DNA of 64,000 nt, from the NCBI GenBank assembly GCA_021228405.1, contig JAJQRF010000001.1, positions 1-64,000 on the forward strand, given 5' to 3'. Made by a program: the position numbers and the translations under genes. The DNA is from Pyrinomonadaceae bacterium (GTDB taxonomy: Bacteria; Acidobacteriota; Blastocatellia; Pyrinomonadales; Pyrinomonadaceae). This document shows, one piece after another, positions 3,849 to 8,439 of this stretch (its first letter is position 1; every line of letters begins with the position of its first letter). The notes under the pieces are model-generated. The model did no database searches. It was not told the origin of the DNA and was given only the letters and a program-made list of their open reading frames with translations.

Positions 3849-5942
3849 TTATTTTTTATTGACGACGTTTGAATTGCGAATATAAAGCGTTCCGCTTTCG
3901 GAAGTGAAATTAAACTTTGAATCGCCGTTTCCGGTGCGCCAGGTATTTTCGTCTTCCATCACAAAGCTGACACATCCCGAACACTTTTCAGACCCAACGC
4001 TCGTAACTCTTCCGTTGCCGTTTGCGTTTTGTCCCGAAACAGCCGTGCCGTTAATAAAAACATTCTGTCCCGAACCGTAGACCGAAGTACCGTTTGCACC
4101 GATAAAACCGATCTCGTTATTGGTTTTGATAAGGGCATTGGCGGTTTCCGGCAAGGTCAGATAAATATCTCCGGCGTTCGATTTGGCGTTAATTTTCGTA
4201 AAATCGCCTTCGAGAAAAACTTCGCTGTCATTGGTTTGCGCTTCGAGTTCGCCGCGAAAACCGATAATTCTCACAAGACCGTCGGCAGTGAACAGGCGGA
4301 GTTTTCCGTCCGCGTCGCGGATGTTTACCGCGCCTTCCGTTCCGTTCAGATCAAGTTCGCCTGAAACGTTCTCGATTCTGATCTCACCGTCCGTAACGAT
4401 CTTGAGATTCGACTTTTTTGGGACAAATACCTCCACGAAAACACCTTTCGCGCCGTCGCCGAAATATTCGTCCGCGTCTTCTTTATTGTTTACGACGATT
4501 TTTACTTCCGAATCGCTCGCGTCGGCGGTCATCGCAAGCGGCTTTTTGTCACTGCTCCGCGACATCTTTTTTACGACGTATTGAACCTCCTGCTTGTCCC
4601 AACCGCGAATTTTCACGTCGCAACCGCTGGCATTGACCGTCACTTTCGGCGTGCCTTTAACCGCAAAGGTTTCGCTTTTTTTCTCGATCGCAGGCATACT
4701 TCCCGACCAGTTTATCTCCGCCAAACGGTCGAGATTCGCCAATTTTTCCAGTTTTATCGCTTCGATCTGTTTTTGTAAATCTTCGAGATTGATCTCTTTC
4801 AAACCTTTCAAACTTTCAAGCGAAGCACGCACCGACGCTTCGGCGGCAAGCGCGATTTCAGGGTCGAGGTCTTTCAATTCCAAACGCATTTCCTTTAACG
4901 CTTCTTCCATTTCCCTCTGCGCTTCCTTTATCGACACCAAACGTTCTTTGTCGGCTTCGCGCATTGCGGCGGCAACTTCCTTGTTGATCTTGCCGATTTT
5001 TACTTTCGGAACGCGCGGCGGCACGGGAACGGCAACATCCGCCGAATATTCGCCGTCTTCCGAATCTTCTTTGATGTCATTCAAAAGATTGGTCGGCTGG
5101 CTCGGATTTTTGCCGTCGTTCTTTCGATTGATGAACAAACCGCCGTTGACACTGCTGAGTTTGATCTGCGCGTTGCCGTTGCCGAGTCTGCCGTAAAGGT
5201 CTTTGCCGACATATTCGCCTTTCCGCACGGGAAGCCCGAAATCGTTAGCGATCTTGCCGTTGACCGTGTCGGCTTTAACGGTCGCGTTGGAATCGGACGG
5301 GATCAGCAGATTGACTTGTCCGTTGACGGTTTCAAGCGAGATTTTGCTTCCCGCTTCCAGATTATCGAAATCGGCGTTGACCGTTCCGTTGACGGTCGAA
5401 AGCGAAGCGTTTCCGCGTAAATTCGACGCTTTGACCTGTCCGTTGACGGCTGAAACATTGGTCGAATTAACAAAATTTGAAACCGTTACCGAACCGTTGA
5501 CGGTTTCGATCTCGTCCAAAACAGCCGTGCGCGGAATCATCAGACGAAACTGCACTTCGAGTTTCCGGTAATTTTTCCAGCCGTTCTGATTGTTTTTCCA
5601 GTTGCCGTAATCGACTTCGGCGGTGAACGAATTCTGGTTTGAATCGATTTTGATCTCGACTTCGTCGAGCGTTTCCTTGCTGTCGGCGATCTTGGTCGCT
5701 TCGAGGCGGACTTCCGGTTTGTCCCACGCTTCGACCGTGATCGAACCGTTGATGTTTGAAACGCGAACTTTTCCGTTGGCGTTCAAGGGATAGCTTTGTT
5801 CAAATTTTTCGGTTTCGTCCAACTGGATCGTCTGCGCCGAATTCGTTTCTGTTTCGAGATTGTATTGTTTGCCGGGAAGCGATATGTCGCTACCTGTCGA
5901 AATCATCAATCCGGCTAAAATAACGGAATATAACCAACTCAT
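3849..5942 (-). CDS. DUF4097-family secreted beta-repeat protein with a helical insert
   Basis: A 697-residue protein with an N-terminal hydrophobic export signal (WLYSVILAGLMIS). Residues about 55-290 and 430-690 carry the repeated VNGSV/VNGQV/VNGTV-type strands typical of the DUF4097 (putative adhesin) right-handed beta fold, for example VRVSNINGSITVEAWD near residue 59. Between the two halves, about residues 315-425, is a strongly charged Lys/Glu helical region (READKERLVSIKEAQREMEE) that should form a long helix or coiled coil. A ribosome-binding site (CAGGAG) stands 8 bases before the ATG. Role unknown; such proteins are often found next to anti-sigma or two-component genes, but none is adjacent here. 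The gene is divergent from the TPR regulator. Confidence 0.8.
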   Translation of the reverse strand: MSWLYSVILAGLMISTGSDISLPGKQYNLETETNSAQTIQLDETEKFEQSYPLNANGKVRVSNINGSITVEAWDKPEVRLEATKIADSKETLDEVEIKIDSNQNSFTAEVDYGNWKNNQNGWKNYRKLEVQFRLMIPRTAVLDEIETVNGSVTVSNFVNSTNVSAVNGQVKASNLRGNASLSTVNGTVNADFDNLEAGSKISLETVNGQVNLLIPSDSNATVKADTVNGKIANDFGLPVRKGEYVGKDLYGRLGNGNAQIKLSSVNGGLFINRKNDGKNPSQPTNLLNDIKEDSEDGEYSADVAVPVPPRVPKVKIGKINKEVAAAMREADKERLVSIKEAQREMEEALKEMRLELKDLDPEIALAAEASVRASLESLKGLKEINLEDLQKQIEAIKLEKLANLDRLAEINWSGSMPAIEKKSETFAVKGTPKVTVNASGCDVKIRGWDKQEVQYVVKKMSRSSDKKPLAMTADASDSEVKIVVNNKEDADEYFGDGAKGVFVEVFVPKKSNLKIVTDGEIRIENVSGELDLNGTEGAVNIRDADGKLRLFTADGLVRIIGFRGELEAQTNDSEVFLEGDFTKINAKSNAGDIYLTLPETANALIKTNNEIGFIGANGTSVYGSGQNVFINGTAVSGQNANGNGRVTSVGSEKCSGCVSFVMEDENTWRTGNGDSKFNFTSESGTLYIRNSNVVNKK

Positions 5943-6239
5943 AATTGCACTCCTGAAAGCTTATAAAAATGTATAAATTGAAGAAGAATTTCCTCGTAAC
6001 TACATACAAAACACCGCACGTTTTCGATTTATGACAAGTTTTTTGAAAAAAAATTCAATTTTTTATTTGACGCAGAAATTCAAGGAACGATTGCCGCAAA
6101 ATTTCGTCCTTATCATTTGGAAAATTCAAAGTTCGGAATGATAAAATCTCAGTTTTGAGAATTAAATAAAGTTTTCCTTCGTGTTTTGCAAAGCAACTTA
6201 TTATTTTTTCAAATCGTCCAAAAAATCTATTTGATCGGC
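5943..6239. promoter_or_regulatory. Divergent intergenic region
   Basis: About 300 AT-rich bases between the minus-strand DUF4097 gene and the plus-strand TPR regulator. It must hold the promoters of both genes. I see no operator-like inverted repeat clear enough to name. Confidence 0.4.
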
Positions 6240-6255
6240 AGGAGAAGTTTTTATT
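6240..6255 (+). promoter_or_regulatory. Ribosome-binding site and probable AUU initiation codon
   Basis: AGGAGAAG (6240-6247) is a strong Shine-Dalgarno sequence. The open frame that encodes the complete winged-helix domain begins just after an in-frame stop at 6232-6234. Between that stop and the domain there is no ATG, GTG or TTG. The codon at normal distance from the ribosome-binding site is ATT at 6253. Confidence 0.5.
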
Positions 6256-8160
6256 TACTACGCATTTGACGATTTTCGGCTCGATGTCGAAAACGAGAAA
6301 TTATTCAATGCAGATCAGCCCGTTTTGCTCACGCAGAAGGCTTTTGCCATTCTGCATTTGCTCTTGAAAAACTCGGGTCAATTGGTAAAAAAAGAATTTC
6401 TCATAGCGGAAATCTGGCAGGACAGCTTTGTCGAAGATGCCAATATCACGCAACAAATTTACATTTTAAGAAAAACGCTCGGCAGCGATAAAAACGGCAA
6501 ACCTTTTATCGAAACCTTACCGAAACGCGGCTACAGTTTTGTCGGCGAAGTCAGAAAATTTGAAAAAATTGCCGACGAAGCGGTCGACAACGATTTAAGC
6601 GAAGAGAAACCGATCTCAGTTGCAAACGATGAGATAAACGAAAAATCCGAATTTTCGACCGTTTCAAAAACTTTTTCCGGGAAATATTTGCAAGCCGGCT
6701 TGGTCGTTTTGGCAGTTTTTGTTTTGATTGGTGCGGTCTTTGTTTTCAAAAATAAAACGTCGACGGCAACCGGAAACGCGATCAACTCGGTCGCGGTTTT
6801 GCCGTTCAAAAATATTTCACAAAATGACGATTCTAAACTCGCTTTCGGGCTTTCAGATGCGGTTATCAACAATCTGAGCAAACAGCATAAAATTCCCGTT
6901 CGCTCGATGAGTTCGGTTTTTCAATACGCCGACAAAGAATCTTACGACCCGATCGAAGCCGGAAAAAATCTCGGTGTCGATTCCGTTTTGGAAGGAACGG
7001 TTCAGCGCGAAGGCGAACAGGTCCGAGTTTCGCTCAGACTGATAAAAATCTCCGACGGTTCGACGCTCTGGGCGGAAACCTTTAACGAAAAATCGGGCAA
7101 TATTTTCGCTTTGCAGGATTCTATTTCCGACAAAGTTACGCGTTCGCTTCCGCTGAATTTGGCAGGTTGGGAGAAACCGCTCGCCGCCAAACAGCCCGCC
7201 AATCCCGAAGCGTTTCAGTTTTATCAGCTCGGCGTTTATTTTTCCAACACGCACACTAAAGAAGGTTTTGAAAAAGCCGTTCTTTATTTTCAAAAAGCCG
7301 TCGAATTAGACCCGAATTACGCGCCGGCTTACGCAATGCTCGCCGATACTTACAACTGGCAAAACGACTCTGTAACGACCGAAAAAAGCCCTGAACTATG
7401 GAGCAAATCCGAAGAAGCCGCGAAAAAAGCGTTGGCTCTGGACGATACGGTTGCCGAAGCCTATATTGCTCTCGCTTTTGTCCAGTTTGCGAAATACAAG
7501 GATTTTGAAGCGGGCAAAAACTCGCTCGAACGCGCCGTCCGGCTTGCGCCTTTCAATCCGTTTGCCCGACTTCATTACGGCTGGGAATTGCTTCAACGCG
7601 GCGATGTCGAGAATGCTTACGCGGAGCTAAAACTCGCGCAGGAATACGCACCGCTTTCAGCGCATAACAATATGTCTTTTTGCAGTATCTTGATGTGCAA
7701 ACGCGATTATCAGCAAGCTTTGAAATATTGTGAAAAAGCCGCCCAACTCCAACCGACTCTGCCGTTCGTAAATATTCAAACGGCAAATGTTTTGTATCTC
7801 AACGGAAGAACCGACGAAGCCGTAAATTTGCTGAAATTGGAGAGTAAGGACGCATCGCAAAAATTCACCGCCTTGGGAAGTTTGGCTTATATTTACGCGA
7901 AAAACGGTAACAAAACCGAAGCCGAAATACTCTATTCACAACTCAAGGATTCGCCTGACGGGGCGAATAAATACAGCGATCTGACCTTGCTTGCCTTCAC
8001 GCTCGGCAAAAAGGACGAAGCCTTAAAATATTTCCGCCAATTGCTTAATCAATCCGCAATCCCGCCGACTTATCTGAATTTCGATCCTTACTGGGAAGAA
8101 GTTTTGAAGGACGAAAATTTCAAAAATCTGATCGTCAGAACTCCGCATCAAACTTCCTAA
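6253..8160 (+). CDS. CadC-type winged-helix regulator with TolB-like and TPR domains
   Basis: About 635 residues if translation starts at ATT 6253. The first 24 residues (YAFDDFRLDVENEKLFN...PVL) complete the N-terminal strands of an OmpR/CadC-type winged helix that ends near residue 100 (ETLPKRGYSFVGEV). A start at TTG 6325 would remove part of that domain. A single membrane helix lies at about 146-166. It is followed by a TolB/FlgO-like domain, about 176-290 (SVAVLPFKNIS, LGVDSVLEGTVQREG), and tetratricopeptide repeats to the end. Proteins of this type are membrane-anchored transcription regulators that sense through the outer part. The target is unknown; the divergent DUF4097 gene is a candidate because of position only. 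Confidence 0.8.
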   Translation: MYYAFDDFRLDVENEKLFNADQPVLLTQKAFAILHLLLKNSGQLVKKEFLIAEIWQDSFVEDANITQQIYILRKTLGSDKNGKPFIETLPKRGYSFVGEVRKFEKIADEAVDNDLSEEKPISVANDEINEKSEFSTVSKTFSGKYLQAGLVVLAVFVLIGAVFVFKNKTSTATGNAINSVAVLPFKNISQNDDSKLAFGLSDAVINNLSKQHKIPVRSMSSVFQYADKESYDPIEAGKNLGVDSVLEGTVQREGEQVRVSLRLIKISDGSTLWAETFNEKSGNIFALQDSISDKVTRSLPLNLAGWEKPLAAKQPANPEAFQFYQLGVYFSNTHTKEGFEKAVLYFQKAVELDPNYAPAYAMLADTYNWQNDSVTTEKSPELWSKSEEAAKKALALDDTVAEAYIALAFVQFAKYKDFEAGKNSLERAVRLAPFNPFARLHYGWELLQRGDVENAYAELKLAQEYAPLSAHNNMSFCSILMCKRDYQQALKYCEKAAQLQPTLPFVNIQTANVLYLNGRTDEAVNLLKLESKDASQKFTALGSLAYIYAKNGNKTEAEILYSQLKDSPDGANKYSDLTLLAFTLGKKDEALKYFRQLLNQSAIPPTYLNFDPYWEEVLKDENFKNLIVRTPHQTS

Positions 8161-8224: not shown

Positions 8225-8428
8225 TTGAAGATTTTTAAATCGCTCAGTGTCACGATTTCCAGAGCGGGTTTTATTTTTACGCTGAACGTGGGAATTGTTT
8301 TGATTCACTCCGATCTAGGCTGGTTCGTCGGCGAACACGGCAACGGCAACAGCGAATACGGTTTTATTTTAATCGTCGCTCTTTTAACGGTTACGGCTTC
8401 AGATTCTAAACCCGATCTTCCCAAATAA
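8225..8428 (+). pseudogene. Remnant of a DoxX-family membrane protein (C-terminal part)
   Basis: The frame reads VGIVLIHSDLGWFVGEH, then EYGFILIVALLTV. This resembles the C-terminal two helices of DoxX-family proteins (an H...GWFVGEHG-type loop followed by EY and a last helix). The usual first half with its other helices is absent, because an in-frame stop lies at 8204-8206. No good start or ribosome-binding site is visible. I call it a decayed fragment. It could instead be a short expressed protein of about 67 residues starting at TTG 8225. Confidence 0.45.
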
Positions 8429-8439
8429 CTACAGATATT

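Follow-up and report, generated by a model that had tools for sequence, protein, structure and literature searches.

Bacterial genes known to start at AUU outside infC are very few, and such starts as a rule keep the amount of protein low. Documented cases are pcnB of Escherichia coli and cvfC1 of Staphylococcus aureus, beside which stands the AUA start of ccpN, and the rarity stated in a previous sequence-only reading of the locus described here is thus borne out. The AUU start of E. coli pcnB, described by Binns and Masters in 2002, reportedly limits its translation. In S. aureus, ribosome profiling identified AUU as the start codon of cvfC1 and AUA as that of infC and ccpN; all three follow an extended Shine-Dalgarno (SD) sequence, and the near-cognate starts of cvfC1 and ccpN are conserved (PMC13009471). 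Reporters of cvfC1, ccpN and citZ reached about 10% of the AUG level in poor medium, while in rich medium the ccpN AUA rose to 30% and the cvfC1 AUU was unchanged (PMC13009471). Among membrane-associated transcription regulators, CadC is maintained at 1-3 molecules in each cell (PMC6320335).

Here we report on a window of 64,000 nucleotides from a Pyrinomonadaceae bacterium (GenBank assembly GCA_021228405.1, contig JAJQRF010000001.1, positions 1 to 64,000), in which a regulator gene on the forward strand (6253..8160, +) very probably starts at the AUU codon 6253, placed by an AGGAG sequence, the usual start codon having probably been lost in an ancestor. The product, 635 aa long if begun at ATT 6253, is by its predicted architecture a ToxR/CadC-like one-component regulator, as judged from Pfam, PDB sequence matches and the translation. 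Its N-terminus matches Trans_reg_C (PF00486), an OmpR-type winged helix, over the cut-off (E 5e-17), and many TPR matches are found in the same protein, together with a weak FlgO-like match below the cut-off. At around residues 149-170, the hydrophobic segment LQAGLVVLAVFVLIGAVFVF was read by eye in the translation as one candidate transmembrane helix. The PDB sequence matches include the DNA-binding domains of CadC, ToxR (listed as cholera toxin transcriptional activator), OmpR and PhoP, and several of the wHTH alignments begin at query residue 3 or 4. An AlphaFold model of the first 115 residues, built from two sequences, had a mean pLDDT of 52 and was not used. Directly 3' of the regulator gene lies a short TTG-initial frame (8226-8429, +), which by eye apparently encodes a small hydrophobic protein.

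The regulator frame (6235-8160, +) opens after an in-frame TGA stop (6232..6234, +), ends with the stop at 8158-8160 and, just as the sequence-only reading had described, contains no ATG, GTG or TTG before the domain. The letters after the TGA are TCG GCA GGA GAA GTT TTT ATT(6253) TAC TAC GCA TTT GAC GAT TTT CGG CTC GAT, and the first usual start codon is TTG 6325 (6325..6327, +), which we read as an internal Leu codon. The strong ribosome-binding site noticed in that reading is present as the SD element AGGAGAAG (6240..6247, +; core AGGAG, 6240-6244). It ends 5 nt before the proposed AUU start codon (6253..6255, +), with a TTTTT run in between, and the gap from the AGGAG core to the ATT is 8 nt. 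On the same contig, a strong SD core precedes 139 of the 592 genes that start with ATG (23%) vs 14 of 592 control positions (2.4%). Given this enrichment and the recurrence of AGGAG at the corresponding codon of an ortholog, the AGGAG ahead of ATT 6253 is more than chance. Translational coupling or reinitiation was also considered and set aside, because the upstream neighbour is on the opposite strand at both loci.

The closest ortholog (G026:C2, locus L044; GenBank JAIBCC010000055.1) comes from Pyrinomonadaceae bacterium SSF56, a member of another genus of the same family, with 64% identity between the two proteins across query residues 1-626. In the ortholog, too, the frame (TTT TTT TAG GAG AGC ATT ATT TAC TAC GAT TTT) is devoid of a usual start: an in-frame TAG overlaps the AGGAG and is followed by AGGAGAGCATT-ATT-TAC-TAC. 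Where orthologs might have shown an ATG in place of the window's ATT, the opposite was found, as the sole close ortholog carries ATT at the aligned codon, 6 nt past its AGGAG, and a second ATT one codon further upstream. The spacers between SD and ATT differ, being AAGTTTTT in the window gene and AGCATT in the ortholog, so both sites have diverged yet retained the SD and the ATT. The AUU start put forward from the window is hence supported more strongly than by the window sequence alone. A third ortholog was sought among genomes of the order and in 162 genomes of the class, and none was found. Because the flanking genes are unlike at the two loci, both upstream and downstream, orthology is called solely from the protein tree; the gene downstream of the ortholog (L044 5942-6619) encodes 225 aa with a Cys-rich C-terminal half and has no Pfam match.

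In a tree of 40 proteins, the two AUU genes group as sisters (100/100); the next branch is G026:C7 (100/100), a relative with 53% identity, followed by L012 from G019. G026:C7 can begin at GTG (GTG GAA GAA GTT TTC TAC TAC), with TTC replacing the ATT, and L012 begins with ATG GCA GTT TGT GAA AGC ATT TAT TAC. At the codon aligned to the proposed start, L012 thus has ATT, and L046 has ATC; in those relatives beyond the pair that were examined, a usual start lies a few codons upstream of this position. As the outgroup G026:C7 has both the GTG option and TTC, the putative AUU start is confined to one small clade whose carriers are the two orthologs only. Since the outgroups keep the usual upstream start, this start probably disappeared in the pair's ancestor, in which a pre-existing Ile codon near the SD, also present in some relatives, would have been recruited as the start codon, a scenario inferred from few sequences, with G026:C7 having TTC at the ATT position.

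A start at TTG 6325 would yield a protein of 611 aa without the N-terminal wHTH segment, which we regard as quite unlikely. TTG is a common start candidate on the contig, being the first usual start codon in 203 of the 976 selected ORFs; it is also present at the matching codon of the ortholog, and Trans_reg_C is still matched from it (profile 6-77, 58.5 bits, vs profile 2-77, 62.1 bits, from ATT). The earlier claim that this start would delete the first strands of the domain therefore stands in part: the loss from the Pfam profile is confined to its first positions, but the segment removed is the conserved N-terminal YxFxxFRLD, which is found throughout the family and aligns to OmpR/PhoP wHTH structures. 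No SD was seen before TTG 6325, and initiation there would leave the conserved AGGAG-ATT unexplained. The 24 codons ahead of the TTG are, moreover, under protein-level constraint. Over codons 2-24, dN and dS are 0.27 and 0.77 against the ortholog and 0.29 and 1.21 against G026:C7, and dN/dS is about 0.24-0.36, a rough ratio as it covers 23 codons only; third positions account for 10 of 19 and 12 of 21 differences, respectively. In the 72 nt upstream, ungapped identity falls to background (16/72 with the ortholog and 25/72 with G026:C7). Together, these values mean that the protein-coding signal extends as far upstream as the ATT but not clearly past it. Both this constraint and the ATT shared by two genera can be read directly from the sequences.

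That a usual start is concealed by faulty sequencing or assembly, whether by reading ATG as ATT or by an indel that splits off an upstream start, is scarcely credible. The TTTTT run before the ATT is a typical place for an indel, but a separate assembly, at 64% protein identity, repeats the ribosome-binding site and the ATT at the aligned codon, with a different spacer and an in-frame TAG at the SD, and the combination of an upstream start with a frameshift, named in the sequence-only reading, would need an identical accident in two diverged genomes. Another view, that the gene has lost its start and is either a decaying pseudogene or the source of a leak-level product only, is very improbable: the usual start has probably been lost, as relatives outside the pair have one upstream, but both copies retain an intact frame of more than 600 codons and a strong SD, and their N-terminal dN/dS is below 1. 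The AUU could also be a dedicated regulatory start that senses the level of IF3 or the growth state, which would be compatible with, and add to, initiation at AUU 6253 as we propose it. An IF3-sensing start has been proposed for infC, and a growth-dependent start has been seen for ccpN. Two genera have retained the AUU, even though a single base change would give ATG, and the efficiency of the ccpN AUA shifts with the medium; however, only two lineages are involved, and the cvfC1 AUU shows no medium effect (PMC13009471). Folding of the start region is not unusual in either AUU gene (z 0.41 and -0.03), and an Rfam search of 5900-6400 gave no match, which also speaks against such a sensing start and leaves it unlikely.

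The window gene is exceptional within its genome, in which it is the only one of the 15 Trans_reg_C genes without a usual start. A codon-usage scan covered contig C4, which spans 1.19 Mb or about 21% of the genome and carries 976 selected ORFs, some spurious; it looked for coding signal ahead of the first usual start in combination with a strong SD and ATT, ATC, ATA or CTG. The window gene was the only convincing case, the two other positive scorers being near zero, in a scan that is blind to genes also having an in-frame usual codon upstream. Across 162 genomes of the class, a search for the pattern of GGAG and ATH ahead of the YxFxxF motif returned 14 matches, only three of them without a usual start, namely the AUU pair and a distant relative from G005. 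The same pattern with ATG, GTG or TTG gave 20 matches irrespective of frame. The G005 member (L160 1501-1520 / L171; G005:C74:8937 onward) encodes a wHTH-TPR regulator and has no ATG, GTG or TTG before the domain; its letters are TGA ATA GTT TCT GGA GGT TGT ATC TTT CAC, so that GGAGG-TTGT-ATC suggests a possible AUC start behind GGAGG. This case is a lead only, because no close ortholog of it was found in the order. It is doubtful that AUH starts are a recurrent device that sets or senses expression in acidobacterial TPR-type ToxR-like regulators. In most of the family genomes examined (L066-L095), a conserved ATG is missing from the start of infC; ATA, ATC or ATT precedes a conserved Ala or Pro codon behind a GGAG-like sequence, as read by eye from the translations. 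Because infC of the family apparently starts at these codons, near-cognate starts seem to be in use in this lineage.

We propose that the initiator tRNA would read AUU 6253 as Met, with the ribosome positioned by the AGGAG 8 nt upstream. By analogy with S. aureus, such initiation may be weak, on the order of 10% of AUG, and a weak start may keep a low-copy membrane regulator scarce. With infC, pcnB, cvfC1 and ccpN as analogies and CadC at 1-3 molecules per cell, the most likely role that we infer for the AUU is to hold the ToxR/CadC-like regulator at a low level. No paper on AUU starts in Acidobacteria turned up in a literature search. Conserved AUH starts are already known from other genes, and what would be new here is such a start in a protein family for which the literature search showed none. 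Gene finders restricted to ATG, GTG and TTG would truncate this regulator, and the conservation in two genera suggests that near-cognate starts are under-annotated and discoverable by ortholog comparison.

The infC gene and the window gene share a near-cognate AUH start that follows a good SD. They differ in that IF3 discriminates against the start of its own gene, which results in feedback, while the window product is an unrelated transcription regulator. The latter is a wHTH-TPR membrane regulator and not a factor that acts on start-codon selection, and an infC-like feedback or sensing role for the window gene is not supported; nor is such feedback needed. pcnB shares the AUU start, but its product is a poly(A) polymerase with no homology to the window regulator. 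cvfC1 and ccpN are similar in having a conserved near-cognate start and a strong SD in a gene whose product is, or may be, a regulator; in contrast, they are Firmicutes genes for unrelated proteins, and their starts were mapped by ribosome profiling, whereas that of the window gene is placed from sequence only. CadC and ToxR share with the window regulator an N-terminal OmpR-type wHTH followed by a membrane stretch, read by eye in the window gene, but the C-terminal part of the window regulator is TPR-rich. After work by Ude in 2013, a polyproline stretch, rather than the start codon, is said to limit translation of CadC. For the window gene an AUU start is proposed, which offers a testable route to a scarce membrane regulator beside the polyproline stall of CadC.
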